A stretch of 64,000 bases of DNA from Dokdonia sp. GTDB lineage: Bacteria > Bacteroidota > Bacteroidia > Flavobacteriales > Flavobacteriaceae. Positions within the stretch are counted from its first letter, which is position 1; each line of letters opens with the position of its first letter. A program made the position numbers and the translations under genes. Shown here in pieces: positions 203-63,654 of the stretch. The notes beneath the pieces are model-generated. The model saw only the letters and a program-made list of their open reading frames with translations. It did not search any database and had not been told where the DNA came from. The stretch is taken from assembly GCA_020630915.1 (NCBI GenBank), contig JAHDIF010000004.1, positions 1 through 64,000 on the forward strand, in the 5' to 3' direction.

Positions 203-1180
203 ATGAGTGATCCCGCTTTCGCGAAAGCGAATGTTTCCCCAAAAAAAATAGTTGTAGGCTTCTATAACCTAGAGAACCTTTTTGACACTAAAGACGATCC
301 AAGCAAATTAGATGATGATTTTACTCCAACAGGGTTCAAACAATGGAATGAAAAGCGCTATACAAAAAAGCTTAAGAAGTTAGGGAAAGTGATTTCTAAA
401 ATAGGCAAAAAGGAAACGGGCGACCCTCCTGCCCTTCTTGCCGTTGCCGAAATAGAAAACGCCAGTGTACTAGAAGATCTTATCAAAGTGAAAGCCCTTG
501 TAGAGCACGATTATGGCGTAGTACACTTTGACTCACCAGATGAGCGTGGTATTGATGTAGGACTTATATACAGAAAAGACTGTTTTACGGTGAGTACCGC
601 TGTAACGAAAACCGTTTGGCTAGAGACAGAAACAGGAGAAAGAGACTATACACGTGACATCTTGCACGTAACTGGTAATCTTATGGGCACAAAAATTCAT
701 TTGCTCATAAATCACTGGCCTTCTCGTCGCAAAGGAGCCAATGAAACTGCCCACAAACGAATTAAAGCTGCACAAGAAAACAGAAAAATAATTGAGTCTT
801 TACGTGAGAAAGAACCAGATGCACGAATTATGATTCTTGGGGACTTTAATGATGGGCCCTATGATGTGAGTGTAAAAGATCACCTGGTGCAAAAAGACCT
901 ATACAACCCAATGGTGTTTCTCAACACCAAGTATGAGGGAAGTTTGAACCATAATTTTGAGTGGTATCTCTTTGACCAGATTATTTTATCTACCAATTTT
1001 ATGCGTATCCACCAGAACAATTTTAAGTACTTATATTCTAACATTTACAATGAGAAATACCTTACAGAATTTAGAGGGAAATTTAAAGGAAACCCCTTTC
1101 GTACCTATGCGGGCAAACGCTATCTAGGGGGTTATAGTGATCATTTTCCTGTATACATTACTTTTAAGATACATAGTTAA
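203..1180 (+). CDS. endonuclease/exonuclease/phosphatase family protein (no signal peptide)
   Basis: A 325-residue protein of the EEP (DNase I-like, Mg-dependent) superfamily. Visible motifs are FYNLENLFDT (residues 20-29), catalytic-type AEIEN (82-86), NHWPSRR near 171, GDFND near 214 and the terminal GYSDHFPVYI with its SDH motif. It closely resembles the EEP protein at 13267-14313, so the two are paralogues. Unlike that one it has no signal peptide: the N-terminus reads MSDPAFAKANVSPKK, where PAFAKA is encoded by the palindrome at 215-228. The ATG at 203 is the only sensible start. Family members cleave nucleic acid or other phosphodiesters; the substrate cannot be read from sequence. A hairpin overlaps the stop codon. 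No co-directional partner lies close, so it is probably monocistronic. Confidence 0.9.
   Translation: MSDPAFAKANVSPKKIVVGFYNLENLFDTKDDPSKLDDDFTPTGFKQWNEKRYTKKLKKLGKVISKIGKKETGDPPALLAVAEIENASVLEDLIKVKALVEHDYGVVHFDSPDERGIDVGLIYRKDCFTVSTAVTKTVWLETETGERDYTRDILHVTGNLMGTKIHLLINHWPSRRKGANETAHKRIKAAQENRKIIESLREKEPDARIMILGDFNDGPYDVSVKDHLVQKDLYNPMVFLNTKYEGSLNHNFEWYLFDQIILSTNFMRIHQNNFKYLYSNIYNEKYLTEFRGKFKGNPFRTYAGKRYLGGYSDHFPVYITFKIHS
215..228. repeat. palindrome GCTTTCGCGAAAGC, copy 1
   Basis: Perfect copy, extended to CGCTTTCGCGAAAGCG. It is intragenic, read as AFAKA at the N-terminus of the EEP protein. Confidence 0.95.
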
Positions 1181-1200
1181 CATTGTAAATGTTAATTTTT
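1176..1200 (+). terminator. AT-rich hairpin plus T6, overlapping the EEP stop codon
   Basis: TTAACATT, a 3-base loop and AATGTTAA are followed directly by six T. The left arm contains the TAA stop at 1178-1180. The stem is weak because it is AT-only apart from one C-G pair, but the position is right. Confidence 0.5.
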
Positions 1201-1410
1201 TGCCAATCATCGGGTTTTTGAGGTATTATGTCTAAAACTTGATAGCATCCTTTGCAAACTTCTTTTTTTGTGTCAAATTCGTAAGATGGCATAAAACTAC
1301 TTCTACCAACCAAAAACTATATACAAAACCTATCCTAGGTCGATCTAGTTGTTGTCATTGAACTAATAAGTATCGAAGTGTGCTTATTAACCGCCTAATT
1401 CATTTACATT

Positions 1411-4400
1411 ATGACAGCTACACATAGCCCAATTAAAAAAATTGCCATTGTCTTATTATGGCTTATTCCTACACTCTCTTTTGCACAGATAACAGTTGAT
1501 ACGAGTATTACGACAGAGCAACTTGTTCAGGACGTACTTATTAACGGTACTTGTGCGGAAACATCCAATTTTTCTTCATTTACTGGAACTGCGGTTGGTA
1601 TTAATGGTATAGCAGCCTTTGATGCTAGTGGTACAAATTTTCCCTTTTCTGGAGGAGTAGTGCTTACCTCAGGAGATGTTAATACGGTACCCGGACCAAA
1701 CACAAATACAGCTGGTGGCGGCGGGTGGCCAGGAGATGCAGATCTTGAGGCTTTTACAGGGGCAACTGCAACAAATGACGCTTCTTGGATACAATTTGAT
1801 TTTGTCCCGCTTACAGAGCAATTAAGTTTTGATTTTATCATGGCTTCAGAAGAATACAATCAGAATTTTGAATGTACCTTTTCGGACGCATTTGCATTTA
1901 TACTCACTGATCAAACTACAGGAGTCTCGGAGAACCTAGCAGTTCTTCCTGGAACTACCACTCCTATCCAAGTTACTAACATAAGGCCTGAAGTTGTAGG
2001 TCAATGTGGCGCCGTGAACGAAGAGTTCTTTGGGCAATATAATTTTGCGCCTTTTAATGACGCAAACACCTCTCCTACCAATATGAATGGACAGACGGTG
2101 GAGCTCACAGCTACTTCTACTGTGGTTATCGGAAATACCTATACTATCAAATTAGTAGTAGCCGATTCTCAGGACACCGCCTTTAATATGGCAGTTTTTA
2201 TTGAAGCAGGTAGTTTTAACATTGGCTCTACTGATCTTGGTGAAAATCTATTGATTGCCTCTGGAAACGCTCCTTGTGAAGGAGATACCGTAACACTAGA
2301 TGCTACAGATCCAGATGCCACTTCGTATACGTGGTTTTTTAATGACGTTTTGATTGCTAGTGAAACAAACCCTACTCTAGACGTAACGGTAGCTGGAGAA
2401 TATGGTGTAGAAGTCACACTTGTAGATCTTGAAGATTGTGTGGTTAGAGATGATATCATTGTCGAATTTATAAATGGTGATGCTGTCAACCTTGGTGATG
2501 ATTTAGATGTTTGTGAGGGAGAGACAGAAACCCTATCTGTTGGACCATTTGGAGGAGATACCACCTACGTGTGGTTACTTGACGGAATGGAAATTGCAGG
2601 AGAGACAAATCCTACATTAGATGTTACAGCTGCTGGAAATTATACCGTGCAAGTAACATTCCCTGCGGGTTGTACATTCTCAGATGACGCGATGGCGACC
2701 ATTGTTCCTACTCCTACTCTAGATCTTGGAGAAGATCTTAATAGTTGTTTTGATGAGCCTGTCACTTTAGATGGAACTCCGGATAATGTGGATCCCGCGA
2801 TGGCAACCTATCAATGGTTCCTAGACGGATTTGCCATTGGTGGGGCGACAAATGTCACTTTTGACGCTACCCAAGCGGGTGTGTATACGGTAGAAGTAAC
2901 TCTTGGAGACTGTACTGGGTCTGATTCCTTAACCATAAACCAAGCAAATCCTGATGGCACAAGCTGTATTGCAAATGATCTTTGCTTTGATGCAGAGACT
3001 GTAGCTTGTGGAGATGTGATTACAGGAAGTACAGAGGGTGCGACTACAAACGATGCTCCTGGAACGTGTGGTACTACTGGAGGAGCTCCTGGAGTATGGT
3101 ATAGCTTTATAGGTACTGGAAATATAATAGAATTAGGATTATGTAATTCTAACTACGACACAAAACTTCAAGTTTTTGAAGGGGCTTGTGATGCTCTTGT
3201 TTGTGTAGATGGAAACGACGACTCCTGCGGATTACAATCTGAAGTGACCTTCTTATCTACCCCAGGTACAGAATATTTTATATATGTTTTTGGATTTGGA
3301 TCTTCCCAAGGAGATTATGAACTAACAGTAAACTGCGTTTGTGATCTTAGTGTAGATGCTGGACCCGATCAAGTGTTATGTCCAGGGGGCGACCCATTTG
3401 TACTTGAGGCTATCATTTCGGGAGAAACAGCAGCTAACCCTGTTTATGAATGGAGTACAGGTGAGACAACCAGTACGATAACGGTTTCTATGCCTGGGAC
3501 CTATACTGTTGAAGTAACTACCGATGGGGATTGTATTGCAACAGACGAAGTTATTATTGAAATGGGTAGTCCTGATGATCCAGAATGTAATATTCCTGAT
3601 GGGGATACTTGTGAAATAATAGATGCAGGTCCCGACCAAGAAGTTTCTTGTGACGATCCTTGTGTAGACTTAACAGCAGCCTTTTTTGGAATCCCTAATA
3701 TTACGAACACACTTCCTACCACAGAAACTAGTTCTTATACAGTAGGTATGGTAGATTGTCCGTTACCTCCAGTAGAAGGTGGAGATCCTACAAATATAAC
3801 AACTGATGATATTTGGAGTGGGGTTATAAATATTCCTTTTACTTTTTCATATTTTAATACTGATTATACGAGCCTAGTTGTGGGTGCAAACGGACAAATT
3901 TCATTTAACACCACCTTAGCTAATAATGCAAATGGATGGAGCTTTGAGCCTGATGAATTACTTCCATTTAATGACGAGGCAGCGGAGCCTGGCTTTGCAG
4001 AGTTTCCATTTAACACAATTTACGGAGCGTATCACGATATTAATCCTGGAACAAATGGAGACCCAAGCGCCATTAACTATTTTGTTTCTGGAACGGCCCC
4101 ATTTAGGACATTTGTTTTAAGTTTTAATGGAGTACCTCAATTTTCTTGTAGTGACTTGCTTACGACACAGCAAATCATTTTATATGAGACATTTAACGTA
4201 ATAGATGTCAATATTATTAACAAGCCAGTTTGCAGCACTTGGAATGATGGTCTTGCAGTTATAGGGCTCATGGGTAATAATTTGACTGAGTTTAGCGTTC
4301 CTCCTGGAAGAAATACTGGGGCTTGGGAAGCCTCAGATGAATCTTGGAGATTCTTGCCTGATGGTGAAACTACAGATCCAACTGTTGTATTTGAATGGAC

Positions 4401-6533: not shown

Positions 6534-8423
6534 ATGAAGAAGTTTTACCCATACATCTTGCTTTTTGGACTTTTTAGTACTGCAGCAAGCGCACAAAACA
6601 AGGACACTAAAAAAGCAGATAAACTTTTCGAAAATCTTGCTTATACAGATGCTATAAAAGCCTATACATCTCTCATTGAAAAAGGCAAAGCAGATACGTA
6701 CGTCTACACGCAACTTGCCAAAGGATACGCCTTTCTCAATGACACGAAACAAGCAGAATCTTTTTACAAAAGAGCCACCAAAGGAAAGAAAGTAGACCCT
6801 GAAGTAATTTACAACTATGCAGAAGTGTTAAAATCTAATGGTAAGGCAAGTGATTACACCTCTTGGATGCAAAAATTTTCACAAGCAAAACCTAATGATC
6901 CTAGAGCTAAAGCTTTTAAAGAAAATCCAGATTACCTAAGTGAACTTCTGTCTATGGAGCCAGCTTTTACAGTAGACAACGCAAAGGCACTCAATTCAAA
7001 ATTTGCAGATTTTGGCGCCTTTATAAAAGATAACCGTATCTATTTTGCTTCGGCAAGAAATACAAGTCGTAAAAATCACAATCTTAACGGCGAGCCATTT
7101 TTAGATATCTACTCCGCTACATTGGATGGGTCTTCAATGGGCGCTCCAGAAATTCTGGCTGGTGATGTAAATACTAAGTATCACGAAGGTACAGTTGCTA
7201 TTTCCCCAGATGGAAAGCGCATGTACTTTGACAGAAACGATTACTACAAAGGGGACTTAGATAAAAGTACTGCTGGAGTTAATCAGATTAATATGTACAC
7301 CGCAGAGAAAGTAGGAGCTAACTGGGAAAATATACAGTCTGTGCCTTTTAACGACGATAATTACTCTACGGGTCACCCAGCGTTAAGTCCTGATGGAAAA
7401 ATACTTTATTTCTCCAGTGATAAGCCTGGAGGCAAAGGAGGGTCAGACCTTTATATGGTAGCTGTAAAAGCAGATGGCTCTTTCGGTACGCCACAAGCAT
7501 TGTCAGGAGCTATTAATACTAGAGGAACAGAAGCATTTCCTTTTGTAGATAATAAAGGAACGCTTTACTTCTCAAGTGACGGACATCTTGGAATGGGCGG
7601 GTTGGATGCTTTTTCCGCTTTCGCGAAAGCGGGATCTTTCTCAACTCCAGAAAACCTAGGTCCAGGGGTAAATAGTGGGAGTGACGATTTTGCCATTTAT
7701 GTAAATCCTGATACGATGACAGGATATATATCTTCTAACCGTCAAGGTGGATCTGGTAGTGATGATATTTATATGCTAGGACAGGTACCTCCTTGTGATG
7801 TAGACGTTGCATTAACGGTAGAAGATGAAAGTGGAACAGGAATTAGTAATGCGCTCGTAGAGCTTGTAAATACTACAGAAGATACTACAGATTCTGACAC
7901 AGCAACCACTACTGGAAAATACCTATTCAGCTCAAAATGTAATAGAGCCTATACCGTAACGGTTAGTGCAGATGGGTATAAAACTAAAACACGTAATCTT
8001 ACTGTAGGAAAAGAAGGGTCTGACAATACAATTACGCTTGAAGCTATTGTGGAGGCGCCAGTAATTACTGAGACAGAGGTTATCTTAAACCCTATATATT
8101 TTGATTTTGACAAAGCCAACATCCGTCCAGATGCCGCGGCAGAGCTGGATCGCCTGGTGAATGTAATGAACACATACCCTACCATGGTCATTAGCGCAGA
8201 GAGTCATACAGATGTGCGTGGTCCCGAAAGTTATAATGAGCGTTTATCTCAACGCAGAGCAAACTCAATGAGTGATTATATCATAAGCAAAGGAATTGAT
8301 GCAAGTCGTATTTCCGGAGTAGGAAAAGGAGAATCAGAACCTGCTGTAACTTGTGGATCTAATTGTACAGAAGATGAACATCAACTTAACAGACGATGTG
8401 TATTTAAAATAGTGAGAAGATAA
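6534..8423 (+). CDS. OmpA family protein with TPR, PD40 and carboxypeptidase-regulatory domains
   Basis: A 629-residue protein. After a signal peptide (1-20, ending ASAQ) come TPR-like helices (about 25-125), WD40/PD40 beta-propeller repeats (about 145-415, with ISPDGKRMYF, LSPDGKILYFSS and DNKGTLYFSSDG), a carboxypeptidase-regulatory domain (about 425-505) and an OmpA/MotB peptidoglycan-binding domain (about 515-629, with YFDFDKANIRPDA and ESHTDVRGP). This is the architecture of the PorE-like partner encoded after PorP/SprF genes. It probably tethers the surface complex to peptidoglycan. A palindrome copy at 7617-7630 is translated as AFAKA inside the propeller, which indicates tolerance of the insertion. 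A strong terminator follows. Confidence 0.92.
   Translation: MKKFYPYILLFGLFSTAASAQNKDTKKADKLFENLAYTDAIKAYTSLIEKGKADTYVYTQLAKGYAFLNDTKQAESFYKRATKGKKVDPEVIYNYAEVLKSNGKASDYTSWMQKFSQAKPNDPRAKAFKENPDYLSELLSMEPAFTVDNAKALNSKFADFGAFIKDNRIYFASARNTSRKNHNLNGEPFLDIYSATLDGSSMGAPEILAGDVNTKYHEGTVAISPDGKRMYFDRNDYYKGDLDKSTAGVNQINMYTAEKVGANWENIQSVPFNDDNYSTGHPALSPDGKILYFSSDKPGGKGGSDLYMVAVKADGSFGTPQALSGAINTRGTEAFPFVDNKGTLYFSSDGHLGMGGLDAFSAFAKAGSFSTPENLGPGVNSGSDDFAIYVNPDTMTGYISSNRQGGSGSDDIYMLGQVPPCDVDVALTVEDESGTGISNALVELVNTTEDTTDSDTATTTGKYLFSSKCNRAYTVTVSADGYKTKTRNLTVGKEGSDNTITLEAIVEAPVITETEVILNPIYFDFDKANIRPDAAAELDRLVNVMNTYPTMVISAESHTDVRGPESYNERLSQRRANSMSDYIISKGIDASRISGVGKGESEPAVTCGSNCTEDEHQLNRRCVFKIVRR
7617..7630. 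repeat. palindrome GCTTTCGCGAAAGC, copy 2
   Basis: Perfect copy with C/G extension, read as AFAKA within the propeller of the OmpA-family protein. Confidence 0.95.
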
Positions 8424-13266: not shown

Positions 13267-14313
13267 ATGAAAACCTATTTTTTAGCAATTCTTTGTTTGT
13301 GTTACGCTTTCGCGAAAGCGCAATCAGAAAAAACCTATAAAGTACATACCATCGCATTTTATAATGTAGAAAATCTTTTTGATACAGAAAATGACCCAGT
13401 AACTTTTGACGACGATAGAACACCAAATGGAAAAGACCACTGGACGGAAGAAATTTATCAAGACAAAGTAAAGAAAATGGCAGGCGTTATTGCCGAAATA
13501 GGTCAAGAGGTCGCAAATAATGCTCCTGCCCTAATAGGTCTGGCCGAAGTAGAAAACAGAAAGACTGTAGAGGATCTCGCAAATAACGCTCAATTACTGG
13601 ATAAAGATTATGGTATAGCTCATTTTGATTCTCCAGACAGAAGAGGAATAGACGTGGCGCTACTATATCAAAAAAGTTTATTTAAACCTACTAATATTAG
13701 CAAGCACGAACTTATTATTTACGACAATGAAGATCGTGACAAGCGAAGATTTACAAGAGATCAATTACTGGTTTCTGGCCTACTAGATGGAGAAAAAATT
13801 CACGTTATCGTAAATCACTGGCCCTCTAGAAGTGGTGGAGAAGCTCGCAGCAGAGCAAAACGTATCGCCGCAGCAGAGCTCAATATAAAACTCATAGATA
13901 GCCTCCAAAGTAATGATCCATATGCAAAGATTATAACAATGGGTGACCTCAATGATGATCCTACAAGCCCTAGTGTAAAAAAGACGATGAAGGCTCAAGG
14001 AAAAAGAGAGAAAGTAAAGGATCAAGGCCTTTTTAATCCTATGGAGTCTATGTACAAAAAGGGACTAGGCACCCTCGCCTATAGAGATGGCTGGAATCTT
14101 TTTGACCAGATTATCGTCTCTGAGCCTTTAATACGTAAAGACTTTAACTCCTACAGGTTCTATAAAGCGGGAATTCATAATAAAAATTACCTAAGTAATC
14201 CTAAAGGGAGATATAAGGGGTATCCTTATCGAAGTTTTGCAAATGGAGGGTATACAGGAGGGTATAGTGATCATTTTCCAGTCTATATCTATTTAATCAA
14301 AGAGGTAAAATAA
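13267..14313 (+). CDS. exported endonuclease/exonuclease/phosphatase family protein
   Basis: A 348-residue EEP superfamily enzyme with a signal peptide: MKTYFLAILCLCYAFAKAQ, with predicted cleavage after AKA. The palindrome at 13306-13319 encodes that AFAKA, so it supplies the AxA cleavage motif. Family motifs are FYNVENLFDT (about 32-41), AEVEN (about 94-98), RRGIDVALLY, NHWPSR (about 187), GDLNDDP (about 227) and GYSDHFPVYI near the end. It is a paralogue of the protein at 203-1180. It is divergent from the TonB receptor/DUF5689 pair, which suggests that the three handle one substrate: the enzyme would cleave extracellular or periplasmic phosphodiesters and the receptor would import products. 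That role is inferred. A strong terminator follows. Confidence 0.9.
   Translation: MKTYFLAILCLCYAFAKAQSEKTYKVHTIAFYNVENLFDTENDPVTFDDDRTPNGKDHWTEEIYQDKVKKMAGVIAEIGQEVANNAPALIGLAEVENRKTVEDLANNAQLLDKDYGIAHFDSPDRRGIDVALLYQKSLFKPTNISKHELIIYDNEDRDKRRFTRDQLLVSGLLDGEKIHVIVNHWPSRSGGEARSRAKRIAAAELNIKLIDSLQSNDPYAKIITMGDLNDDPTSPSVKKTMKAQGKREKVKDQGLFNPMESMYKKGLGTLAYRDGWNLFDQIIVSEPLIRKDFNSYRFYKAGIHNKNYLSNPKGRYKGYPYRSFANGGYTGGYSDHFPVYIYLIKEVK
13306..13319. repeat. palindrome GCTTTCGCGAAAGC, copy 3
   Basis: Perfect copy with C/G extension. It is read as AFAKA and forms the signal-peptidase site of the exported EEP protein. Confidence 0.95.
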
Positions 14314-18413: not shown

Positions 18414-20030
18414 TTAATTAACGCTTTTGTAAGCAAGTATTAATTGTGATGTGGAGGCGTCATGATCCATAGCTGTTGTAGTATTAAAATCTGAAAGGAC
18501 CTTCTTTGCTAGCTGTTTTCCCAGCTCTACACCCCATTGGTCGTAACTAAAGATATTCCACACAACACCTTGTACAAATATTTTATGTTCATACATAGCT
18601 ACAAGTGACCCGAGAGAAGCGGGTGTAAGCTTGTCAATAAGTAGTGTTGTCGTAGGCTTATTTCCAGCAAATACTTTAAAGGGGATAAGTTGCTCTTTTT
18701 GCTTTCGCGAAAGCGTACTTTTCTCAAGTTCTCTTTCTACCTCCTCTGCAGTTTTACCATTCATTAAGGCCTCCGTCTGTGCAAAGAAGTTTGCCATTAA
18801 TTTATCTTGATGATCCTTATTACCATGAAGTGCCGTTTTAAACCCGATAAAATCTGCCGGAATGAGTTTTGTGCCCTGATGTATTAATTGAAAAAAAGCG
18901 TGTTGTGAGTTTGTACCTGGCTCTCCCCATATGATAGTACCAGTCTGGTAATTTACCTGATCTCCATTTCTATCTACGCTCTTCCCATTACTTTCCATAA
19001 TGGCCTGTTGCAAATATGCTGGAAGACGATGTAAGTATTGTGTATATGGGATTACCGCTTCACTCTCTGCTCCAAAGAAATTATTATACCACACACTTAA
19101 AAGTGCAGTAATTACGGGGATATTTTGATCAAAAGGAATTTCTTTAAAATGTGTATCCATCGCATGTGCACCAGATAGCATATCCTCAAAATTATCGTAT
19201 CCTACTGCGAGTGCGATCGACAAGCCTACAGAGCTCCATAGAGAGAATCGTCCTCCTACCCAGTTCCACATTGTGAATATATTGTCTGAGGCAATTCCAA
19301 AATTTTGAACCGCTTCAAGATTGGTAGAAACTGCCACAAAATGGTTTGCCACTGCTTCTTCACCTAAATGCTCCACAAACCACTTGCGCACGGTGGTCGC
19401 ATTACTCAAGGTTTCCTGTGTAGTGAAGGTTTTAGATACAATTACAAAAAGTGTAGTCTCAGGGTTCAATCCTTTAAGAGATTCCATCACGTGGTCTCCG
19501 TCTACATTAGATATAAATCGTGTATTGAGGTGATTTTTATAATACTGCAACGCCTCTACGATCATTACAGGACCTAAATCAGACCCTCCTATCCCTATGT
19601 TTACCACATCTGTAATGTTTTTTCCTGTAGCTCCTTTATGCTCGCCAGAAATTACTCGATGGGTAAAGTTTTTTATAGCCTGTTTAGATTTGCTTACTTC
19701 TGCTTTCGCGAAAGCGTGCTCACCCTCATCCCGCAACGCCGTATGCATCACAGCACGACCTTCTGTTGCATTAATAGGCTCTCCACCAAAATAGCTGTTA
19801 ATCGCTCCTTTGAGGTCTACTTCATTAGCCAGATCAACAAGTAGTTCTTTTGTGGTGGCATCTATTCGATGCTTGCTATAATCTACTAGAAAATCTTCCC
19901 AAGTGATTGTAAAATTACTCGCACGATCTTGATCTTTAAAAAGCGTCTTGAGATGTGTATCTTTAATTGTCTGGTAATGTGCCTTAAGGGATTTCCAGGC
20001 GTTTGTTGTGGTTGGGTTGATATTTTTCAA
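18414..20030 (-). CDS. pgi: glucose-6-phosphate isomerase
   Basis: Interconverts glucose-6-phosphate and fructose-6-phosphate in the cytoplasm. At 538 residues it has the usual length of the long bacterial form. Signatures are [12 protein letters not shown] (about 145), the sugar-isomerase block [13 protein letters not shown] (about 262), NGKSVDRNG, and the PGI signature [14 protein letters not shown] near 500. It is the last gene of a minus-strand operon, starting 6 nt after the M23 peptidase stop. Two copies of the 14-bp palindrome fall inside the gene and are read in different frames: AFAKA at 19702-19715 and LSRK at 18701-18714. Function confident; regulation not visible. Confidence 0.97.
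18701..18714. repeat. palindrome GCTTTCGCGAAAGC, copy 4
   Basis: Perfect copy inside pgi, read as LSRK on the minus strand. Confidence 0.95.
19702..19715. repeat. palindrome GCTTTCGCGAAAGC, copy 5
   Basis: Perfect copy inside pgi, read as AFAKA; about 1 kb from copy 4 in the same gene. Confidence 0.95.
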
Positions 20031-21356: not shown

Positions 21357-22295
21357 TTATACATTATGTCCCCAAGTGTCTAATTCTTCTTGCGTCCAGA
21401 CATCTGGAAAAAATATACGACGTTGGTATTTAGGGTGCATATACTTTGTCCACTCACTACCTCCCGTAGCCTCTACAACTACTTTACCACTGTTTAAATA
21501 ATGGTTTGCAGCATGATAATGAGACATTACCCAAGTAACATTTACGGTATAGTCATAATGACGCATTGCTTTTAAAAGAGTAGGATTTTCCTGTGCTTTC
21601 TTAGGCAATTTCTTAAAGGTCGCGTACAAATTTATGGTATTATATTCTTTTGTGAAGGCTATAAATTCGTTTTTATACTTTTCTTCAAAAGCCGAAAGTA
21701 AGTATGACTTTTTCCCTGTATGATAGTCCTTTCCAGCAGCTTGCCAGTATAAATGTTCTAGCGCGTGCTCATAAGGAGTGTTGCGGTCTATGCTTTCGCG
21801 AAAGCGGGCATCTATCAAATTAATTAAGTCTGTGCTGGCAAACTCAATCTTGCGGTATTGCGCACTCTGAAAACCGCTTGCAGGAGTTAATGTTTTCCTA
21901 AACTTCATATACTGCTCGACGTCCATCCCATGCTGCATGATACTGAACGAGCTGGTTAACATATCAAAATACCGACTTATGCGATCTAATCTAGAACTAA
22001 AAAACTCTACCGTGAGATTGGGATGATGACATACCTGCTCTATCTCCCAAAGAACCATTTTAAAAAGGAGTTCATTGATTTGATGATACATGATAAACAC
22101 ATTCTCATCGGGCACATTTGTTCGGGGCTGTTGTAGACTGAGCAAAGCATCTGTGTGAATATAATCCCAATACGTAATGGGTTTACTCTGTAAAAGTCCT
22201 TCTAAGTGATCATCCAGATCTTGATCTATTTTTTCATACTTATCATCAAGGGCGTTAATGATTTTTTCTATGTCTGGTTGGATCTTTTTGGTCAT
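21357..22295 (-). CDS. tryptophan 2,3-dioxygenase family protein
   Basis: A 312-residue heme dioxygenase family protein predicted to open the indole ring of tryptophan to N-formylkynurenine, the first step of the kynurenine pathway. Signatures are DENVFIMYHQINELLFK (about 62-78, with the heme-side His), SGFQSAQYRKIE (about 138-149) and ATGGSEWTKYM near 281. The length fits bacterial TDO. No other kynurenine-pathway gene is in the window. The gene is the second of a four-gene minus operon (DUF3108, TDO, M23, pgi). The palindrome at 21792-21805 is read here as RFRES. Confidence 0.88.
   Translation of the reverse strand: MTKKIQPDIEKIINALDDKYEKIDQDLDDHLEGLLQSKPITYWDYIHTDALLSLQQPRTNVPDENVFIMYHQINELLFKMVLWEIEQVCHHPNLTVEFFSSRLDRISRYFDMLTSSFSIMQHGMDVEQYMKFRKTLTPASGFQSAQYRKIEFASTDLINLIDARFRESIDRNTPYEHALEHLYWQAAGKDYHTGKKSYLLSAFEEKYKNEFIAFTKEYNTINLYATFKKLPKKAQENPTLLKAMRHYDYTVNVTWVMSHYHAANHYLNSGKVVVEATGGSEWTKYMHPKYQRRIFFPDVWTQEELDTWGHNV
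21792..21805. repeat. palindrome GCTTTCGCGAAAGC, copy 6
   Basis: Perfect copy inside the tryptophan dioxygenase gene, read as RFRES. Confidence 0.95.
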
Positions 22296-24453: not shown

Positions 24454-24467
24454 GCTTTCGCGAAAGC
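24454..24467. repeat. palindrome GCTTTCGCGAAAGC, copy 7
   Basis: Perfect copy with C/G extension, in the 44-nt gap between hmgA and hppD. With no T run it is unlikely to be a terminator. Confidence 0.95.
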
Positions 24468-25786: not shown

Positions 25787-25800
25787 GCTTTCGCGAAAGC
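25787..25800. repeat. palindrome GCTTTCGCGAAAGC, copy 8
   Basis: Perfect 14-bp copy in the hmgA-dinB intergenic region, without the C/G extension. Confidence 0.95.
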
Positions 25801-38978: not shown

Positions 38979-38992
38979 GCTTTCGCGAAAGC
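38979..38992. repeat. palindrome GCTTTCGCGAAAGC, copy 11
   Basis: Perfect copy with C/G extension between the convergent nuclease and ABM genes, 5 nt from the ABM stop. It might be mistaken for a terminator but has no T run. Confidence 0.95.
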
Positions 38993-44194: not shown

Positions 44195-44208
44195 GCTTTC
44201 GCGTAAGC
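44195..44208. repeat. near-copy of the 14-bp palindrome (one mismatch)
   Basis: GCTTTCGCGTAAGC, intergenic, just downstream of the regulatory-domain gene that ends at 44221. Confidence 0.7.
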
Positions 44209-47049: not shown

Positions 47050-47063
47050 GCTTTCGCGAAAGC
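47050..47063. repeat. palindrome GCTTTCGCGAAAGC, copy 12
   Basis: Perfect copy with C/G extension, in the gap between the DUF4212 gene and actP. Confidence 0.95.
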
Positions 47064-48025: not shown

Positions 48026-50110
48026 ATGCTCACAACGCCAAGATTACAAGAATTACTCAAAACCCACTTTGGTTACGACCACTTCCGTCCTAATCAAGGT
48101 GAAATTATAAATGCTATTTGCAATGGCGAAGATGCGTTAGTTATTATGCCTACGGGGGGTGGTAAATCTATGTGTTTTCAATTACCCGCTTTGGCATTAG
48201 AAGGAGTTGCTCTTGTGATATCTCCTCTTATCGCCCTTATGAAAGATCAGGTAGACGCACTACGAGCAAATGGCATTAAAGCTGCTTACTACAATAGCAC
48301 ACAACCGCCCGAAGAAACACAGCAAGTACTACAAGACCTAAGTGACAATACATTAGATCTCATCTATGTAGCACCAGAGAGTCTAGCGTTATTAGACAAC
48401 GTTCTTTCTACTACAAAACTAAGTCTCATAGCCGTAGATGAAGCGCACTGCATCTCCTCTTGGGGTCATGATTTTAGACCCGCTTACACACAACTAGGCT
48501 ATCTTAAAAAACGCTTTTTTGACACTCCGCTGGTTGCCCTTACCGCAACTGCAGACAGATCTACACAAGATGATATTGCAGAACAGCTAGGTATAGCTAA
48601 CGCAAAAAAATATATTTCTTCCTTTGATCGCCCCAATCTGTATTTAGATGTGCGCCCTGGTCAAAAACGCAATGAACAAATTCTAGCCTTTCTTGAAAAA
48701 CATCCTTTTGAAAGTGGTATCATATATTGCCTCTCTAGAAAAAGTACTGAAGCACTCGCACTCAAGTTGCAATCTAAGGGGCATACAGCAGCAGCCTATC
48801 ACGCTGGAATGACCACCCAAGAAAGAACCCAAGTACAAGAAGACTTTATAAATGATACGACCCCAATAATATGCGCCACTATTGCCTTTGGGATGGGCAT
48901 AGACAAAAGCAATGTGCGCTGGGTGATCCATTATAATATGCCTAAAAACCTTGAAGGCTACTACCAGGAGATTGGCCGTGCCGGACGGGATGGCCTACCT
49001 GCACATACCCTTCTCTTTTATAGCTATGCAGACACCATACAACTGCGCAAATTTATAGACGGCACGCAAAATGAAACCTACCAAATTGCTAAGCTAGAAC
49101 GCATGCAACAATATGCTGAGGCCTTGAGCTGCCGCCGTAAAGTGTTGATTAACTACTTCGGAGAATTTCTATCCCAAGATTGTGGCAATTGTGACATTTG
49201 CAAGAATGCTCCAGCATATTTTGACGGCACTTTACTAGCCCAGAAAGTTCTTTCGGGTGTCACGCGTCTTAAAGAGCAAGAAGCTATGGGAATGGTAATA
49301 GACGTTCTTAGAGGCTCTCAAAACGCACAGGTGTATGACAAAGGGTATCAGCATATCAAAACATTTGGCGCCGCACGGGATGTAGCTTGGAGAGATCTTC
49401 AGCAATACCTGATCCAAATGATTAATCAAGGATTATTAGAAATACGCTTTCGCGAAAGCGGACGTCTCCTATTAACACCTCTATCTAGAGAAGTATTATT
49501 TGAAGGTAAGCAAATACAATTTGCAAACCTTACCCAGCCCAAAGCTGAACCTATTACTAAAGAACGTAAACCTAAAAAGCCTAAAGGCACGCTCTTTGAA
49601 AAGCTTCGTGAATTACGTGCAGAACTCGCAAGAGAGGCAAACGTACCTGCCTATATTGTATTTTCTGATGCCTCTTTAAAAAATATGGAAGATCAAGAAC
49701 CGCAATCCTTAGAAGAATTTCTGGGTATCCAAGGAGTTGGACAAGCAAAAATGGAGAAGTACGGTGCAGATTTTCTTAAAGTAATTAAAGAACATCTCAA
49801 AACGACCACTGTGCAAAAGTCTGGAAAAACTGTGGAAGAAACTCGTACTCTCATAGAGCAGGGTCTATCGATAGAAGAAATAGCAGAAGCCCGAAACCTT
49901 ACTGTAAGCTCTATTTACAATCACCTTATAAAACTACACGAGAATGGGATGGACATAGATTTTGATAAGTTTATTCAACAAGTTGAAATCCGGCAAATAA
50001 GGACTGCACGTAGTAAAATAGACAATCCAGATAAACTCAAATCGTATTTTGAATACTTTAAAGAAGAGTTTCCTTATTGGAAGATTAAACTGGGCTTGTA
50101 CTTATCGTAG
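48026..50110 (+). CDS. recQ: RecQ family ATP-dependent DNA helicase
   Basis: A 3'-5' DNA helicase of 694 residues. Helicase motifs are NQGEIINAI, MPTGGGKSMCFQLPAL (Walker A, about 43-58), DEAHCISSWGHDFRP (about 139-153) and the arginine-finger block YYQEIGRAGRDGLP (about 312). The zinc site is CRRKVLINYFGE with CGNCDIC (about 372-395), followed by a winged-helix RQC domain. An HRDC domain (about 530-595, IQGVGQAKMEKYG) and a C-terminal helix-turn-helix region (about 605-660, LSIEEIAEARNLTVSSIYNH) complete it. Involved in recombination and fork repair. Palindrome copy 13 is read as RFRES. Confidence 0.96.
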   Translation: MLTTPRLQELLKTHFGYDHFRPNQGEIINAICNGEDALVIMPTGGGKSMCFQLPALALEGVALVISPLIALMKDQVDALRANGIKAAYYNSTQPPEETQQVLQDLSDNTLDLIYVAPESLALLDNVLSTTKLSLIAVDEAHCISSWGHDFRPAYTQLGYLKKRFFDTPLVALTATADRSTQDDIAEQLGIANAKKYISSFDRPNLYLDVRPGQKRNEQILAFLEKHPFESGIIYCLSRKSTEALALKLQSKGHTAAAYHAGMTTQERTQVQEDFINDTTPIICATIAFGMGIDKSNVRWVIHYNMPKNLEGYYQEIGRAGRDGLPAHTLLFYSYADTIQLRKFIDGTQNETYQIAKLERMQQYAEALSCRRKVLINYFGEFLSQDCGNCDICKNAPAYFDGTLLAQKVLSGVTRLKEQEAMGMVIDVLRGSQNAQVYDKGYQHIKTFGAARDVAWRDLQQYLIQMINQGLLEIRFRESGRLLLTPLSREVLFEGKQIQFANLTQPKAEPITKERKPKKPKGTLFEKLRELRAELAREANVPAYIVFSDASLKNMEDQEPQSLEEFLGIQGVGQAKMEKYGADFLKVIKEHLKTTTVQKSGKTVEETRTLIEQGLSIEEIAEARNLTVSSIYNHLIKLHENGMDIDFDKFIQQVEIRQIRTARSKIDNPDKLKSYFEYFKEEFPYWKIKLGLYLS
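49446..49459. repeat. palindrome GCTTTCGCGAAAGC, copy 13
   Basis: Perfect copy with C/G extension inside recQ, read as RFRES. Confidence 0.95.
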
Positions 50111-51641: not shown

Positions 51642-52229
51642 GAAAACCCCAAACAGTTCTTTCCCTAGTCTAGGTAGAATAGAATTATAAGATCGTTCAA
51701 ATAGTTTTGTTTCAAAATAGGGAGAAAAATACGTCAAATACTCCTCACGAGTCCCACCAAAGGGTCTCTTCTCCATATCTCCTGTAAGTGGAAAATCAAA
51801 CCACAATCCTACCAGCTTGCCATATGGTTTGAGTAATTGAGACATTTTTTTTGCATACATCTTTCTATTTTCGGCTAACGGCACGAAGGAACAAAAAAAC
51901 GTCTGCTCTATTATGAGATCATACTGACCCTCGTGTTCAAAAAAATTACCTTGTACTATGTTTGCTTTCGCGAAAGCGGGATTCCGTTTTTTAAAAGCCT
52001 TGAGTGGCTCTTGTGAAATATCCAAAACATGCACGTTTTTAAACCCACGCTCCCACAAATAGCTCGCCTCATACCCGTTACCTGCGCCAGGAATTAAGAT
52101 TTTTACTTCCTTATCTTGGAGTTGATCTATATACTCCTTGAGGGGTCTAGACGGGTTTCCTATGTCCCATCCAGTACGCCTCTCCTGATAGCGTTGCGTC
52201 CAATACGCATTTTCTTTTTTTGAATTCAT
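51630..52229 (-). CDS. TPMT-like SAM-dependent methyltransferase
   Basis: A 199-residue methyltransferase of the thiopurine S-methyltransferase type. The N-terminal block YWTQRYQERRTGWDIGNPSR (about 9-28) and the SAM-binding loop ILIPGAGNGYEASYLW (about 44-59) are clear. VHVLDIS (about 66) and YDLIIEQTFFCSF (about 104) follow, then the C-terminal GGTREEYLTYF. The physiological substrate is unknown; related enzymes methylate thiols, selenium or tellurium compounds. Palindrome copy 14 is read as AFAKA near residue 85. It overlaps the end of the SLC13 gene by 12 nt. Confidence 0.88.
   Translation of the reverse strand: MNSKKENAYWTQRYQERRTGWDIGNPSRPLKEYIDQLQDKEVKILIPGAGNGYEASYLWERGFKNVHVLDISQEPLKAFKKRNPAFAKANIVQGNFFEHEGQYDLIIEQTFFCSFVPLAENRKMYAKKMSQLLKPYGKLVGLWFDFPLTGDMEKRPFGGTREEYLTYFSPYFETKLFERSYNSILPRLGKELFGVFLKK
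51964..51977. repeat. palindrome GCTTTCGCGAAAGC, copy 14
   Basis: Perfect copy inside the methyltransferase gene, read as AFAKA. Confidence 0.95.
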
Positions 52230-53123: not shown

Positions 53124-53137
53124 GCTTTCGCAAAAGC
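53124..53137. repeat. near-copy of the 14-bp palindrome (one mismatch)
   Basis: GCTTTCGCAAAAGC, intergenic, upstream of the haloperoxidase-like gene. Confidence 0.7.
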
Positions 53138-57442: not shown

Positions 57443-57456
57443 GCTTTCGCGAAAGC
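57443..57456. repeat. palindrome GCTTTCGCGAAAGC, copy 15
   Basis: Perfect 14-bp copy between the ketosynthase gene and bioB, without the C/G extension. Confidence 0.95.
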
Positions 57457-58670: not shown

Positions 58671-58684
58671 GCTTTCGCGAAAGC
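58671..58684. repeat. palindrome GCTTTCGCGAAAGC, copy 16
   Basis: Perfect copy just upstream of the ketosynthase start, readable as AFAKA if a more distal TTG start is used. Confidence 0.95.
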
Positions 58685-58770
58685 GTACAAAATGAAATTC
58701 CCCTTTTTTATCTAAAGAAATCGTAACTTCTTTCATTTACAAACTACTTATAGTAACTCATAACATCACT

Positions 58771-59220: not shown

Positions 59221-60482
59221 AAAACCGACAATGCCTCTTCTATCACCTGGTATGTAATATCCAATTGGGCGTTTGTAGTTACCAGTGGAGGCAATACATA
59301 TACCGTATTGCCCAGTGGCCTAAGGCACACACCTCTATCCATAAAGAAGTTATAGAGTTGTTTGCGTAGCTCTCCATACCGTTCCATCGCGGTATCTATT
59401 TCTAGAGCGAGAATGATTCCTTTAACACGTATATTTAAGGCTTTTGGGTTTTGAGATAACGCTTTCGCGAAAGCGGTATGCTTCTCATAAATACGTTGCT
59501 TATTGCTTTCCATTTCCTGAGAGATAAGTAAGTCTATGCTCGCCTGCGCAGCAGCGCACGCCAGCGGATTTGCACTATACGTATGCGAATGCATAAACCC
59601 TTTGTGCACCTCATCATCATAAAAAGCATCATAAATTTTCTGGGAACAAGTGGTAAGACTCATAGGCAATAATCCTGCTGTGAGGGCCTTACTCAAACAC
59701 ATCATATCGGGTAATGTCTCTACTTGTAATGAAGCAAAATGAGTCCCTGTTTTTCCAAAACCCGTCATCACCTCATCTGCAATGGTGATAATATCGTGGG
59801 CTCGACACTTCTTGAGAATGGCATCTAATCCTGCGGCACTATGCATTTTCATTCCTGCGGCACCTTGCACTAAGGGCTCATACACAAAAGCGGCGCAATC
59901 GTGATTGGCAATAATAGCATCTAAGCGCGCACGAACCTCTTCTAGATTGTCTTGTTGCGGCACAGGAATGCGCTGTACTTTAAGTAAATGCTCTTCAAAA
60001 GGACCGTTGTATACTGATAGTCCGCTGGCAGACATGGCTCCAAAAGTATCACCGTGAAATCCATCTTCAAAAGCAATAAGCACATTGCGTTTTTGGTGCT
60101 TGTTATGATGGTATTGTAAAGCCATTTTTATGGCTGCCTCTACCGCTGTAGAGCCATTGTCGTTAAAAAACATTTTAGCTTGATTCTTAGGCAGAATCTT
60201 AAAAAGCTTTTCGGCAAGATCTGTCGCAGGTTTGTGCGTAAAACCAGTAAAAACTACTTGATCCAGTTGTTGCATTTGAGTACTTACCTTCTCTAGAATA
60301 TACGGATGACAATGTCCAAAAATAGCCGTGTACCAAGAGGCAATTCCGTCAATATACTCCTTGCCATCTTCACCATAAAGTACAGCTCCTTTTGCACTGG
60401 AAATAGCAATAGGCTCATCACTCGTTTTGTGTTGAGTTAAGGGGTGCCAGATGTATTTTTTGTCTAGATGCGAGGTATTCAT
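59217..60482 (-). CDS. bioA: adenosylmethionine-8-amino-7-oxononanoate aminotransferase
   Basis: A PLP enzyme transferring an amino group from S-adenosylmethionine to KAPA to give DAPA. The length is 421 residues. Motifs are KKYIWHPLTQHKT (about 8-20), DGIASWYTAIFGHCHP (about 46-61), FNDNGSTAVEAAIKMA (about 105), ITIADEVMTGFGKTGTHF (about 234) and the PLP Lys in CLSKALTAG (about 268). It lies 97 nt after bioD. Palindrome copy 17 is read as AFAKA. Confidence 0.96.
   Translation of the reverse strand: MNTSHLDKKYIWHPLTQHKTSDEPIAISSAKGAVLYGEDGKEYIDGIASWYTAIFGHCHPYILEKVSTQMQQLDQVVFTGFTHKPATDLAEKLFKILPKNQAKMFFNDNGSTAVEAAIKMALQYHHNKHQKRNVLIAFEDGFHGDTFGAMSASGLSVYNGPFEEHLLKVQRIPVPQQDNLEEVRARLDAIIANHDCAAFVYEPLVQGAAGMKMHSAAGLDAILKKCRAHDIITIADEVMTGFGKTGTHFASLQVETLPDMMCLSKALTAGLLPMSLTTCSQKIYDAFYDDEVHKGFMHSHTYSANPLACAAAQASIDLLISQEMESNKQRIYEKHTAFAKALSQNPKALNIRVKGIILALEIDTAMERYGELRKQLYNFFMDRGVCLRPLGNTVYVLPPLVTTNAQLDITYQVIEEALSVF
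59461..59474. repeat. palindrome GCTTTCGCGAAAGC, copy 17
   Basis: Perfect copy with C/G extension inside bioA, read as AFAKA. Confidence 0.95.
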
Positions 60483-61203: not shown

Positions 61204-62372
61204 AAGCCAAGTTCAGTTTGTAATAATTCCAATACCTCATGTAATTGTTCCTTTTTATTATAACTATGGATACAAAAGCGCAGTCTTTCGGCCCCCTCAG
61301 GAACCGTAGGTGATAGGATAGGTTTTACATCGTAGCCGTGCTCTTTTAGCTTTCGCGAAAGCGCCTTTACCCTATCTACACCAGGAATAATGGCACATTG
61401 TATTGCAGAAACGCTGGGAACAAAATAGGTATCCATACCCGTTCTTGGGATGTGGCTTTTAAAGATATTTATATTCTTTTTAAGTCTTCTTACATTCTCT
61501 ACCATATGCGAGGTTTCCATCTTATCGAGCATCTGGTAAAATGCCAAAATACTGGCAACGGTATGAGGTGGCAATGCTGTTGTATAGATAAAGGATCTGG
61601 CAAAATTAATGAGGTACTGCTTGAGTTCTATACTTCCTACAACGGCAGCTCCGTGAGAACCACCAGCCTTCCCAAAGGTTACAATTCGTGCAAATACACT
61701 TTCTGAAAGTCCGTACAATTGTACTAATCCTTGTCCTTTTATCCCCAAGACTCCCATTGCGTGCGCCTCATCTACAACCAGACGCACTCCGTAGGTCTGG
61801 CATAGTTGGGCCATCGCCACAAGATCTGGAGAATCGCCGTCCATAGAGAATACGGATTCTGTGACTACGTATACTTCAGTAGTTCCCGTCTGTTTATGCT
61901 TAAAGAGCTTTTGACTTAAATCTGCGAGTTCGTTATGGGTAAACTTATAGGCTTTTGCATCACTCATTTTAATACCATCTCGTATGCTCGCGTGACTGTA
62001 CTCGTCATATAATATCACATCTCCTCTTTGCGGCACGCTTTGAAAGAATCCAAGATTTGCTGTATACCCACTATTGAAAATAAGGGCGCTCTCACTTTCG
62101 TGAAAACGTGCTATCAAACTTTCTGTCTCGTCATAAAGTGGATAATTACCCGTAAGTAACCTACTTCCTGTTGCTCCAGAAATGCCTTGCGCGACTTCTT
62201 TTAAAATCTTACGTGTGGCGGTTTGTAATACTCTTGCTAGTGCTGGATGATTGACAGCCCCCAAATAGTCATTAGATGAAAAATCTATCGCACCTTGAGA
62301 AGAAGGTAATTTCCTGACAGAATTAGTAGCCTGTCTTGCCTTAAGTTTTTGATGTAGTTTATCTGGTAACAC
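61200..62372 (-). CDS. bioF: 8-amino-7-oxononanoate synthase
   Basis: A PLP enzyme condensing pimeloyl thioester with alanine to KAPA. The length is 390 residues with a GTG start at 62372. Motifs are FSSNDYLG (about 31-38), GATGSRLLTGNYPLYDETE (about 65-83), VVDEAHAMGVLG (about 200-211) and the PLP Lys region TFGKAGGSHGAAVVG (about 233-247). It is the first gene of bioF-bioD-bioA. A -7-like TATCTTTG ends only 5 nt before the start, so the mRNA could be nearly leaderless. Palindrome copy 18 is read as LSRK. Confidence 0.96.
   Translation of the reverse strand: MLPDKLHQKLKARQATNSVRKLPSSQGAIDFSSNDYLGAVNHPALARVLQTATRKILKEVAQGISGATGSRLLTGNYPLYDETESLIARFHESESALIFNSGYTANLGFFQSVPQRGDVILYDEYSHASIRDGIKMSDAKAYKFTHNELADLSQKLFKHKQTGTTEVYVVTESVFSMDGDSPDLVAMAQLCQTYGVRLVVDEAHAMGVLGIKGQGLVQLYGLSESVFARIVTFGKAGGSHGAAVVGSIELKQYLINFARSFIYTTALPPHTVASILAFYQMLDKMETSHMVENVRRLKKNINIFKSHIPRTGMDTYFVPSVSAIQCAIIPGVDRVKALSRKLKEHGYDVKPILSPTVPEGAERLRFCIHSYNKKEQLHEVLELLQTELGL
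61349..61362. repeat. palindrome GCTTTCGCGAAAGC, copy 18
   Basis: Perfect copy inside bioF, read as LSRK. Confidence 0.95.
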
Positions 62373-63030: not shown

Positions 63031-63033
63031 ACT

Positions 63034-63327: not shown

Positions 63328-63606
63328 TTAATCCGCTAAGACGATTGCTTTATTATTATTCATTTCTAGTGTACCACTCGTAATTTCTAACGACCAGCTT
63401 CCGTCACTTTCTTTTACGAACTTATCTTCAAAGCCTTCGGCAATTGTTGGTGCTCCCTCAAATTTTACCTTACCCTCTACGAGAAGAGACACTACTGCGG
63501 CGTGATTACTCAACATCTGGAATTCTCCATTCACCCCTGGTACTGTAAGTGATTTTACTTCACCACTTACTAAAGATGCTTCTGGAGTAACTATTTCTAA
63601 ATGCAT
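63328..63606 (-). CDS. atpC: ATP synthase F1 subunit epsilon
   Basis: A 92-residue subunit of the F1 central stalk, containing the N-terminal beta-sandwich (LEIVTPEASLVSGEVKSLTV, GVNGEFQMLSNHAAVVSLL) but without the usual C-terminal helical hairpin. Short epsilon forms like this occur in Bacteroidota. It lies 48 nt after atpD with palindrome copy 19 between them. Confidence 0.95.
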   Translation of the reverse strand: MHLEIVTPEASLVSGEVKSLTVPGVNGEFQMLSNHAAVVSLLVEGKVKFEGAPTIAEGFEDKFVKESDGSWSLEITSGTLEMNNNKAIVLAD

Positions 63607-63625
63607 AGTTGTTATTTTTGAGTAC

Positions 63626-63639
63626 GCTTTCGCGAAAGC
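63626..63639. repeat. palindrome GCTTTCGCGAAAGC, copy 19
   Basis: Perfect copy with C/G extension between atpD and atpC. Confidence 0.95.
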
Positions 63640-63654
63640 GTAATTATAAGTCTA

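Follow-up and report, generated by a model that had tools for sequence, protein, structure and literature searches.

Which process could place one perfect palindrome, GCTTTCGCGAAAGC, over and over in the DNA of a marine flavobacterium, and what might that palindrome do? The question arose from a 64-kb stretch of Dokdonia DNA (the window), for which an initial annotation had reported 19 exact copies and had proposed four roles: an uptake tag, a site for a chromosome-organising protein, a methylation target or a self-spreading repeat. It had also set the motif apart, rightly as it turned out, from cyanobacterial HIP1 and from known uptake sequences.

The palindrome in the window and in related genomes

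All 19 exact copies were recovered at the positions reported. Eleven extend to the 16-bp form CGCTTTCGCGAAAGCG, the one-mismatch copies at 41519, 44195 and 53124 are present, and a search allowing up to two mismatches returned 26 matches in the window with respect to 0.16 expected. The chance expectation for the exact motif is about zero, and 100 dinucleotide-preserving shuffles of the window contained none. GCTTTCGCGAAAGC is the sole 14-base palindrome, and its 12-base core the sole 12-base palindrome, to occur more than once in the window. The hexamer TCGCGA occurs 25 times there, 21 of them inside TTTCGCGAAA. The sites are the following (strand. for every one).

215..228, exact site early in ORF 203-1180 (Exo_endo_phos_3), codons AFAKA
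7617..7630, exact site within ORF 6534-8423 (PD40/OmpA)
13306..13319, exact site in ORF 13267-14313 (Exo_endo_phos_3), encoding AFAKA at the end of an apparent signal peptide (by eye)
18701..18714, exact site within ORF 18414-20030 (phosphoglucose isomerase)
19702..19715, exact site within the same ORF 18414-20030
21792..21805, exact site within ORF 21357-22295 (Trp_dioxygenase)
24454..24467, exact site in the narrow space that separates ORF 23277-24437 from ORF 24482-25642
25787..25800, exact site in the gap between ORFs 24482-25642 and 25999-27111
30346..30359, exact site within ORF 28619-30991 (Transgly/Transpeptidase, penicillin-binding protein)
36113..36126, exact site within ORF 30991-36645 (1884 aa, no annotation made)
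38979..38992, exact site in the gap between ORFs 36956-38923 and 38998-39312
41519..41532, one-mismatch site GCTTTCGCGAAAGA
42600..42613, two-mismatch site TTTTTCGCGAAAGC of the "one arm lost" type, membership uncertain
44195..44208, one-mismatch site GCTTTCGCGTAAGC
47050..47063, exact site flanked by ORFs 45285-46997 and 47070-47330
49446..49459, exact site at codon 474 of RecQ-like ORF 48026-50110, a codon shared by 7/8 Dokdonia orthologues found
51964..51977, exact site falling on codon 85 of ORF 51630-52229 (TPMT-like), shared by 1/6 orthologues found
53124..53137, one-mismatch site GCTTTCGCAAAAGC
57443..57456, exact site flanked by ORFs 56322-57413 and 57488-58690
58671..58684, exact site on the 5' margin of ORF 57488-58690 (ketoacyl synthase), a position shared by 1/10 orthologues
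59461..59474, exact site falling on codon 337 of ORF 59217-60482 (aminotransferase III), shared by 3/10 orthologues found
61349..61362, exact site falling on codon 337 of ORF 61200-62372 (aminotransferase I/II), at approximate codons 334-344 in 8/10 orthologues found
63626..63639, exact site between ATP-synthase ORFs 63328-63606 and 63655-63957, beside the former in 7/9 orthologues found

For ORF 57488-58690, 6/10 orthologues carry a site at most about 25 codons beyond their end.

The proposal of a genome-wide palindrome in a flavobacterium holds: the whole genome contains 685 copies, as against 0 for a reversed-pattern control, and all 18 sampled Dokdonia genomes carry 369-905, so that the count is neither at background nor confined to the window. 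The seven named genomes of the Nonlabens group hold 487-701 copies and the one genome of a third genus 408, while none of the rest of the 397 Flavobacteriaceae searched exceeded 19 and none of the 395 Bacteroidota searched exceeded 6. Within Dokdonia, copy number does not track genome size, with 903 copies at 5.5 Mb and 899 at 3.3 Mb. The three genera fall in at least two branches with motif-poor genera between them, and the identical 14-mer on either side suggests that the system was transferred between lineages or repeatedly lost. Trees of RpoB and of ParB (18 rows) each require three trait changes, two of them forced, and so fit loss and transfer alike and do not support a single origin.

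Relics of a lost lattice were sought in 400 kb of Leeuwenhoekiella, which yielded no exact or one-mismatch site and 5 two-mismatch sites (two-mismatch controls: mean 0.82, maximum 16, with 1.7% reaching 5). A similar slight excess of words at three to five mismatches is found in other motif-poor genera, so there is no clear relic signal in Leeuwenhoekiella; the comparison set comprised 14 of 20 pieces, after exclusion of three all-N pieces, one picked for its sites, one from a 17-site genome and the Leeuwenhoekiella piece, which formed its own set. A hairpin in the Leeuwenhoekiella rpoBC spacer resembles a three-mismatch relic, which is suggestive only. The samples from other genera revealed no different palindrome lattice, and, GCTTTCGCGAAAGC apart, every 12- or 14-base palindrome was limited to at most three occurrences per piece. 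Dokdonia and Nonlabens have few sites in common, rpoB-rpoC excepted: this spacer holds the motif in 10/10 motif-rich genomes, and many motif-poor genomes show other inverted repeats there (by eye). DNA that has moved out of these genera might also be followed by means of the motif, one example being a metal-efflux-like cassette in other genera.

Architecture, spacing and conservation of the sites

The 14-mer is the centre of an approximately 50-bp two-fold-symmetric element, whose outward strands are G-poor to about +18. Pooled G content on these strands is 2-5% at +4 to +7, 14% at +8 and 4-10% at +9 to +18, with a background of 19%. Once duplicate flanks and sites near gene ends were removed, the rule was valid at intergenic and coding sites, and it is visible even at third codon positions, on both sides and for either transcription direction. 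The 3' flank is A-rich with C, and C is scarce in the 5' flank of either strand. Comparison of the flanks revealed a base-composition rule only, with no longer repeated sequence around the sites, and palindromic pairing at +4 to +6 is below expectation. The core can form a hairpin, with modest energies (z -1.1 to -2.3 in the 4 of 19 window sites folded).

Near-copies are rare. Loci picked for holding an exact site give biased mismatch ratios. A sample not selected by sites contained 189 exact, 23 one-mismatch and 41 two-mismatch copies (not all independent, since orthologous blocks are included); its shuffled control gave 1.65 exact copies, because shuffling can regenerate the motif. The drop from exact to one-mismatch copies is about 345-fold per sequence (189 vs 23/42), and 13 of the 23 one-mismatch changes lie at the two outer positions.

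The sites also keep apart from each other. Mean spacing is 3.3-4.3 kb, and intervals below 1 kb numbered 4/128 (about 31 expected), 5/164 in a further set (about 37 expected) and 6/103, for which 2000 random placements preserving the intergenic share averaged 31.1 and never fell below 18. One-mismatch copies keep the lattice spacing: of 23 such copies 4% have an exact site less than 1 kb away, vs 9% of 188 exact sites and 54% of random positions. The distribution relative to origin and terminus, a check raised by the initial annotation, was even in the G001 chromosome, where 20/20 evenly placed samples held 2-8 sites per 20 kb (origin and terminus judged from GC-skew signs alone); these samples by themselves gave 105/14/19 sites with 0/1/2 mismatches. 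About half of the sites (59/124) lie inside genes and an intergenic preference is present, the gene calls being those of a simple script of which two versions placed 64 and 60 of the 124 sites between genes. Co-directional, divergent and convergent gaps hold 40/12/11 of 63 intergenic sites vs 39/16/8 expected; there is no gene-orientation preference and no marked convergent excess. A terminator or promoter reading was rejected for want of a marked orientation bias.

Conservation at orthologous positions, likewise suggested earlier, was evident between two species at 77% identity: 35/45 aligned sites are unchanged with respect to 7.8% of aligned 14-mers, and 8 of the 10 differing sites are off by one or two letters. 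The 22% of the DNA that is unalignable holds 16/61 sites, which are therefore not scarcer there. In 71 kb from two related phages with a Nonlabens-group host, there are 0 sites at up to two mismatches. At least 120 stretches of viral contigs have a match, with mostly one copy and some 2-3 among the matches listed, so phage avoidance is a statement about those two phages.

Site repulsion with even density around one chromosome, the symmetric element, rare near-copies that respect the spacing at one mismatch, in-place conservation and absence from two phages are new here. With 14/14 letters, hundreds of copies, few near-copies, regular spacing and flank rules visible at third codon positions, GCTTTCGCGAAAGC is to our knowledge among the strictest genome-wide bacterial motifs, and its carriers are culturable marine bacteria that are not known as pathogens.

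Candidate roles of the lattice

Regular, often place-conserved palindromes point to a putative DNA-recognising system. We tentatively favour, at a little under an even chance, chromosome organisation by way of a maintained lattice that a symmetric protein binds; among the four roles first proposed this is the one we prefer, with the uptake tag kept behind it. Each copy would be the core of a double-stranded site read inside the cell by a putative homodimeric or higher-order sequence-specific protein, and the roughly 700 sites would form a maintained, mutually repelling, chromosome-wide lattice with few members closer than about 1 kb, whose most likely job would be to anchor or nucleate a nucleoid or segregation protein at intervals. 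A stronger form, possible if doubtful, is a chromosome-wide "ruler" in which a hypothetical dimeric protein system would hold about 700 such 50-bp anchors mostly 1 kb or more from one another, and these would define few-kb domains; if true, it would be a previously undescribed system partitioning the chromosomes of Dokdonia, Nonlabens and the third genus. A nucleoid system that forms a lattice and imposes an exclusion distance would itself be new. Our search found no cognate protein, and the eight motif-rich panel genomes have one ParB each and no extra ParB. It is not obvious how selection holds each of about 700 sites at 14/14 letters, and presence in just three genera is patchy for a structural role. 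A canonical parS/ParB site was rejected, as the TTTCACGTGAAA core differs in sequence, the motif is evenly distributed and ParB is single. The parS core occurs 0-2 times per genome, with 0 exact matches in 5/9 motif-rich and 8/9 other genomes, so this rejection is weaker than it appears. The 3.3-kb parB locus holds a motif copy in 7/8 motif-rich genomes, unsurprisingly at such density. Noc, SlmA and matS-type sites have a distribution biased to origin or terminus, and a function of this type was rejected on the even density in the G001 samples.

Uptake-driven accumulation could likewise yield a mutually exclusive lattice: a surface receptor would prefer palindrome-bearing DNA, and transformation-driven molecular drive would accumulate sites and keep them perfect. 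We consider this somewhat unlikely; if true, a palindromic uptake signal in Bacteroidota would be new. An enriched, evenly spaced motif with non-coding excess is what the available text of PMC1939737 reports, with significant even spacing, for Haemophilus and Neisseria uptake sequences; in the accessible parts of the respective sources, AT-tracts adjoin the USS core (PMC7811141), and Riemerella is competent, R. columbina preferring its own DNA (PMC7965970). ComEC is found in 18/18 panel genomes, the two phages lack the site and copy number is unrelated to genome size. However, the available text of PMC1939737 describes uptake sequences as non-palindromic and less evenly spaced than a compaction role requires, whereas our core is palindromic with flanks alike on both sides. 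ComEC is equally universal among motif-poor genomes, and the pilus/secretion ATPase (PF00437 over cut-off) is present in 3/8 motif-rich and 1/10 other genomes. Pilus-based uptake as a shared trait is disfavoured, since the ATPase is missing in 5/8 motif-rich genomes; flavobacterial uptake may use other machinery. The reported over-representation of DUES drops 92- and 82-fold from 0 to 1 mismatch, vs about 345-fold here (the measures are roughly comparable). Two further points speak against uptake: the 14-mer is identical in branches with motif-poor genera between them, and sites are no less frequent in unaligned DNA.

The density of about one site per 4 kb resembles that of E. coli Chi, and a palindromic, two-way Chi-like signal switching the mode of a RecBCD/AddAB-type enzyme, with C-poor 5' flanks on both strands that may favour RecA loading, would also fit the two phages without a site. 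We consider it improbable, as Chi sites are short, asymmetric and orientation-biased, unlike a strict 14-base palindrome, which has no orientation. An RNA-level element (terminator, attenuator or mRNA-stability hairpin) is very unlikely. The foldable core and the rpoB-rpoC spacer, with its other inverted repeats in many motif-poor genomes, are in its favour; against it are the sites inside genes, flank rules closely similar on both sides in either transcription direction, the lack of a marked excess in convergent gaps, the deficit of flank pairing and the modest hairpin energies. Intrinsic terminators lie downstream of genes and are followed by a T-run; this class was rejected because about half of the sites are in genes, convergent excess is not marked and the 3' flank is A-rich with C. 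Least probable of all is a mobile, self-copying REP/MITE-like repeat, to which high copy number and intergenic preference could be ascribed. The initial proposal of self-spreading is disfavoured since aligned sites mostly stay put, the differing ones mostly changing one or two letters, sites exclude each other at short range and no longer repeated sequence surrounds them. A highly improbable origin, standing between the Chi-like and RNA readings, is a side product, as in HIP1, of mismatch repair acting with a DNA methyltransferase, the scenario put forward for cyanobacteria. HIP1 and alternative HIPs occur together with methyltransferases that recognise their cores, and the model puts saturation near one site per 1000 nt (PMC4390886, in its available text). 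Here, 4/8 motif-rich panel genomes (G008, G016, G258 and G207) lack any match to PF00145, the C5 methyltransferase family, which counts against a methylation-driven origin within the C5 class only. Outside the motif TCGCGA is scarce, and a 14-base core with flank rules would exceed such an enzyme's need.

Relation to known systems

The sites parS, Noc box, SlmA and matS are palindromes of about 13-16 bp, highly conserved and read by dimeric proteins. GCTTTCGCGAAAGC is like them as a highly conserved palindrome of similar length with a putative dimeric reader; they number few to tens and are ori/ter-biased, whereas it occurs evenly in hundreds. REP/BIME of enterobacteria are likewise repeated palindromes, many copies being extragenic in both cases, but their units are longer, imperfect and extragenic and form no lattice; the REP/RAYT class, extragenic with a larger unit, was rejected on the sites in genes and the lack of a repeated flank. 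With USS (Pasteurellaceae) and DUS (Neisseriaceae), as the available texts of PMC1939737, PMC3630211 and PMC7811141 present them, GCTTTCGCGAAAGC shares hundreds of near-perfect copies, non-coding excess, even spacing and flanks belonging to the motif. It differs in being a two-fold-symmetric palindrome of lower density, with the same 14-mer in all three genera and no pilus ATPase in 5/8 motif-rich genomes, and its uptake role is putative. HIP1 (GCGATCGC) and alternative HIPs are similar as perfect, genome-wide, lineage-restricted palindromes with one-mismatch forms biased to outer positions (available text of PMC4390886), whereas GCTTTCGCGAAAGC has 14 rather than 8 bases, about one site per 4 kb rather than per 1 kb, spacing exclusion, symmetric G-poor flanks and no shared C5 methyltransferase. 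The 18-nt palindrome nAACCGTTnnAACGGTTn of Caldithrix abyssi, which the available text of PMC5317091 describes as having 38 exact copies, judged outside real genes, with strand-biased centre bases, is similarly unexplained, genome-spread and without a larger repeat around it; GCTTTCGCGAAAGC, in contrast, has 685 copies, lies about half in genes and is perfectly symmetric.

Abundance and distribution of the palindrome

All 19 exact copies of the 14-base palindrome that the initial annotation had placed in the window were recovered at their positions, and 11 of them indeed extend to 16 bp; the shuffled window sequence yields 0 copies. Allowing up to two mismatches, the window holds 26 matches (0.16 expected). 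The genome-wide count that had been proposed as a check gave 685 copies in 2,967,236 bases, compared with 0 for the pattern read backwards, used as control. Within Dokdonia, 18 of 18 genomes carry 369-905 copies each (903 in D. pacifica and 857 in D. sinensis). A survey of 397 genomes of the family showed that hundreds of copies are restricted to three genera, here called motif-rich: Dokdonia (g1), Nonlabens (g11; 578-664 copies in 3 genomes) and a third genus, g191 (408 copies in one genome). All remaining genomes have at most 19 copies. Named Nonlabens-group genomes carry 487-701 copies in 7 of 7 cases, and in a survey of 395 genomes of the phylum any match was found in 22, with a maximum of 6 apart from the window's own genome. 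An RpoB tree built from 30 genomes places Dokdonia and g191 in a group that also contains the motif-poor Leeuwenhoekiella (support 97/96), with Nonlabens elsewhere; two changes of the trait are forced by well-supported branches, and the most parsimonious number is three.

Outside the motif-rich genera, motif pairs spaced by exactly 933 bp repeat across several genomes. Aquimarina and two further sampled genomes (G231 and G177) share identical spacings of 933, 10754 and 3991 bp, and the 933-bp pair is additionally present in G095, G104 and Altibacter. By translation, the Aquimarina and Altibacter pairs may be read as sitting in a metal-efflux cassette with CusA/TolC-like and multicopper-oxidase-like genes, at these loci:
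L248/L249, Aquimarina, efflux-like cassette
L250, Altibacter, efflux-like cassette
We infer that the clustered sites of other genera probably arrived on imported DNA, which may have been exported from a motif-rich genus. A scan of 84,980 species genomes showed, among the matches listed, single copies in unrelated bacteria, as chance would give across so much DNA.

Neither of two phages with a Nonlabens-group host has any copy, even at two mismatches; the two closely resemble each other in gene order. In a scan of viral contigs at least 120 stretches had a copy and a few had two or three; the latter, which include L132, L146, L163, L197, L218, L221 and L224, may belong to phages or prophages whose hosts are motif-rich.

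Spacing, placement and conservation of the sites

Sites rarely lie close together. Among the matches listed, covering a part of each genome, intervals below 1 kb numbered 4 of 99 in the motif-rich genome G001 (22.9 expected; CV 0.74) and 1 of 65 in G000 (14.0 expected; CV 0.54). With respect to 2000 random placements keeping the intergenic share, 6 of 103 intervals were below 1 kb, compared with a mean of 31.1 and a minimum of 18, and the index of dispersion was 0.26, compared with 1.13. Taking the window together with 200 kb each of G001 and of a further genome, G004, 4 of 128 intervals were that short. One-mismatch copies follow the same lattice of mutually repelling sites: 4% of them (n = 23) have an exact site less than 1 kb away, as do 9% of exact copies (n = 188), 17% of two-mismatch copies (n = 29) and 54% of random positions. 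Samples of 20 kb taken every 165 kb along the G001 chromosome contain 2-8 sites each, with no trend matching the GC-skew signs across them. The longest gaps among the first 100 G001 sites (16.7 and 16.8 kb) are adjacent to each other, and the first coincides with an ORF of about 4,430 codons (L295, 2426-15721).

In a 464 kb sample, the 124 sites were distributed as 59 inside genes, 64 intergenic and 1 straddling. As intergenic DNA makes up 12% of the sample, this corresponds to an about 8-fold higher density of sites there. The A-F-A-K-A frame is chosen in 34 of the 59 genic sites, several of which, judged by eye, fall where signal peptides end; the site thus seems fitted into the signal-peptidase region at the DNA level. 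AFAKA(Q) is often encoded at apparent signal-peptide ends in the window (13267-14313) and in G001 (L254, L260 and L292). Two Exo_endo_phos_3 genes of the window, at 203-1180 and 13267-14313, about 13 kb apart, each have a site near the 5' end. Three tandem TAGGGAT units (25806-25826) lie a few bases from the site at 25787.

G001 and G004 are 77.1% identical across 158 kb of collinear DNA. Of the aligned G001 sites, 35 of 45 are exact in G004, compared with 1,664 of 21,233 sampled 14-mers (7.8%); eight of the ten inexact sites are one or two letters off, and two are five or seven off. Taking G004 as the starting point, 40 sites align and 34 of them are exact in G001; among the remaining six, a single letter differs in one and more than one in the others. 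Unaligned DNA holds 16 of 61 G001 sites and 11 of 51 G004 sites. In the block corresponding to the window, many Dokdonia species use the same codon or gap (RecQ codon 474 in 7 of 8), and other sites are common to few orthologues (1 of 6, 3 of 10). The rpoB-rpoC spacer has a site in 10 of 10 motif-rich genomes and in 0 of 20 motif-poor ones; outside this spacer, most of the sites compared are not common to Dokdonia and Nonlabens. By eye, many motif-poor flavobacteria have other inverted repeats in this spacer (loci L342-L371), and in two genomes of the Leeuwenhoekiella clade it contains GCTTCTGYGGAAGC-GTAA.

A symmetric element around the palindrome

In 694.5 kb of Dokdonia DNA we counted 189 exact copies, 23 with one mismatch and 41 with two; control palindromes made by shuffling its bases average 0.3 copies in the one-mismatch and 1.85 in the two-mismatch class. 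Of the 41 copies with two mismatches, no fewer than 28 retain TTTCGCGAAA and have one GC arm altered. The bases just outside the 14-mer, read outward, are G at +1 (85%), T at +2 (63%) and A at +3 and +4 (75% and 62%). Outward-strand G then stays at 2-5% from +4 to +7, 14% at +8 and 4-10% from +9 to +18, and climbs through 11% at +19 to 18% at +20, the background being 19%; in the window alone it is 59 of 646 (9.1%) at +2 to +18, compared with 19.5%. This rule is valid at both 106 intergenic and 118 coding sites. At coding sites in the AFAKA frame (n = 68), the uncorrected frequency of G at third codon positions from +4 to +16 is 0-6% on either side; elsewhere in the codon it reaches up to 34% in places, +2 and +8 among them. 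Both flanks of these sites look much alike in either direction of transcription. Despite the constrained composition, flank identity between G001 and G004 is ordinary (76-83%). We conclude that the palindrome belongs to a symmetric unit of double-stranded DNA spanning about 50 bp.

Candidate readers and interpretation

The symmetry of the element points to a dimeric reader of double-stranded DNA, and the independence of the flanks from transcription argues against an RNA role. Protein families were searched in a panel of 18 genomes, 8 motif-rich and 10 others. ComEC is found in all 18 and is therefore uninformative as a candidate; a pilus/secretion ATPase family is above the cut-off in 3 of the 8 motif-rich genomes, and 4 of these 8 lack any match to C5 methyltransferases. 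ParB is present once per genome in all 8, and exact matches to the canonical ParB-site core number 0-2 per genome, 0 in most.

A mobile repeat is opposed by the exclusion spacing together with the in-place conservation, and systems tied to ori/ter by the even site density. We favour a chromosome-wide architectural system. Recognition of DNA during uptake and a recombination signal remain as alternatives to this architectural role, and spacing alone cannot separate the three. Open-access PubMed Central listings covering the 14-mer, its 12- and 10-base cores, highly iterated palindromes, and palindromes in Dokdonia or Nonlabens contain no description of this motif. Passages of PMC1939737 set out both Karlin's view, in which even spacing signals a function in replication, repair or compaction, and the molecular-drive account of uptake sequences, two positions that have been debated on similar data.
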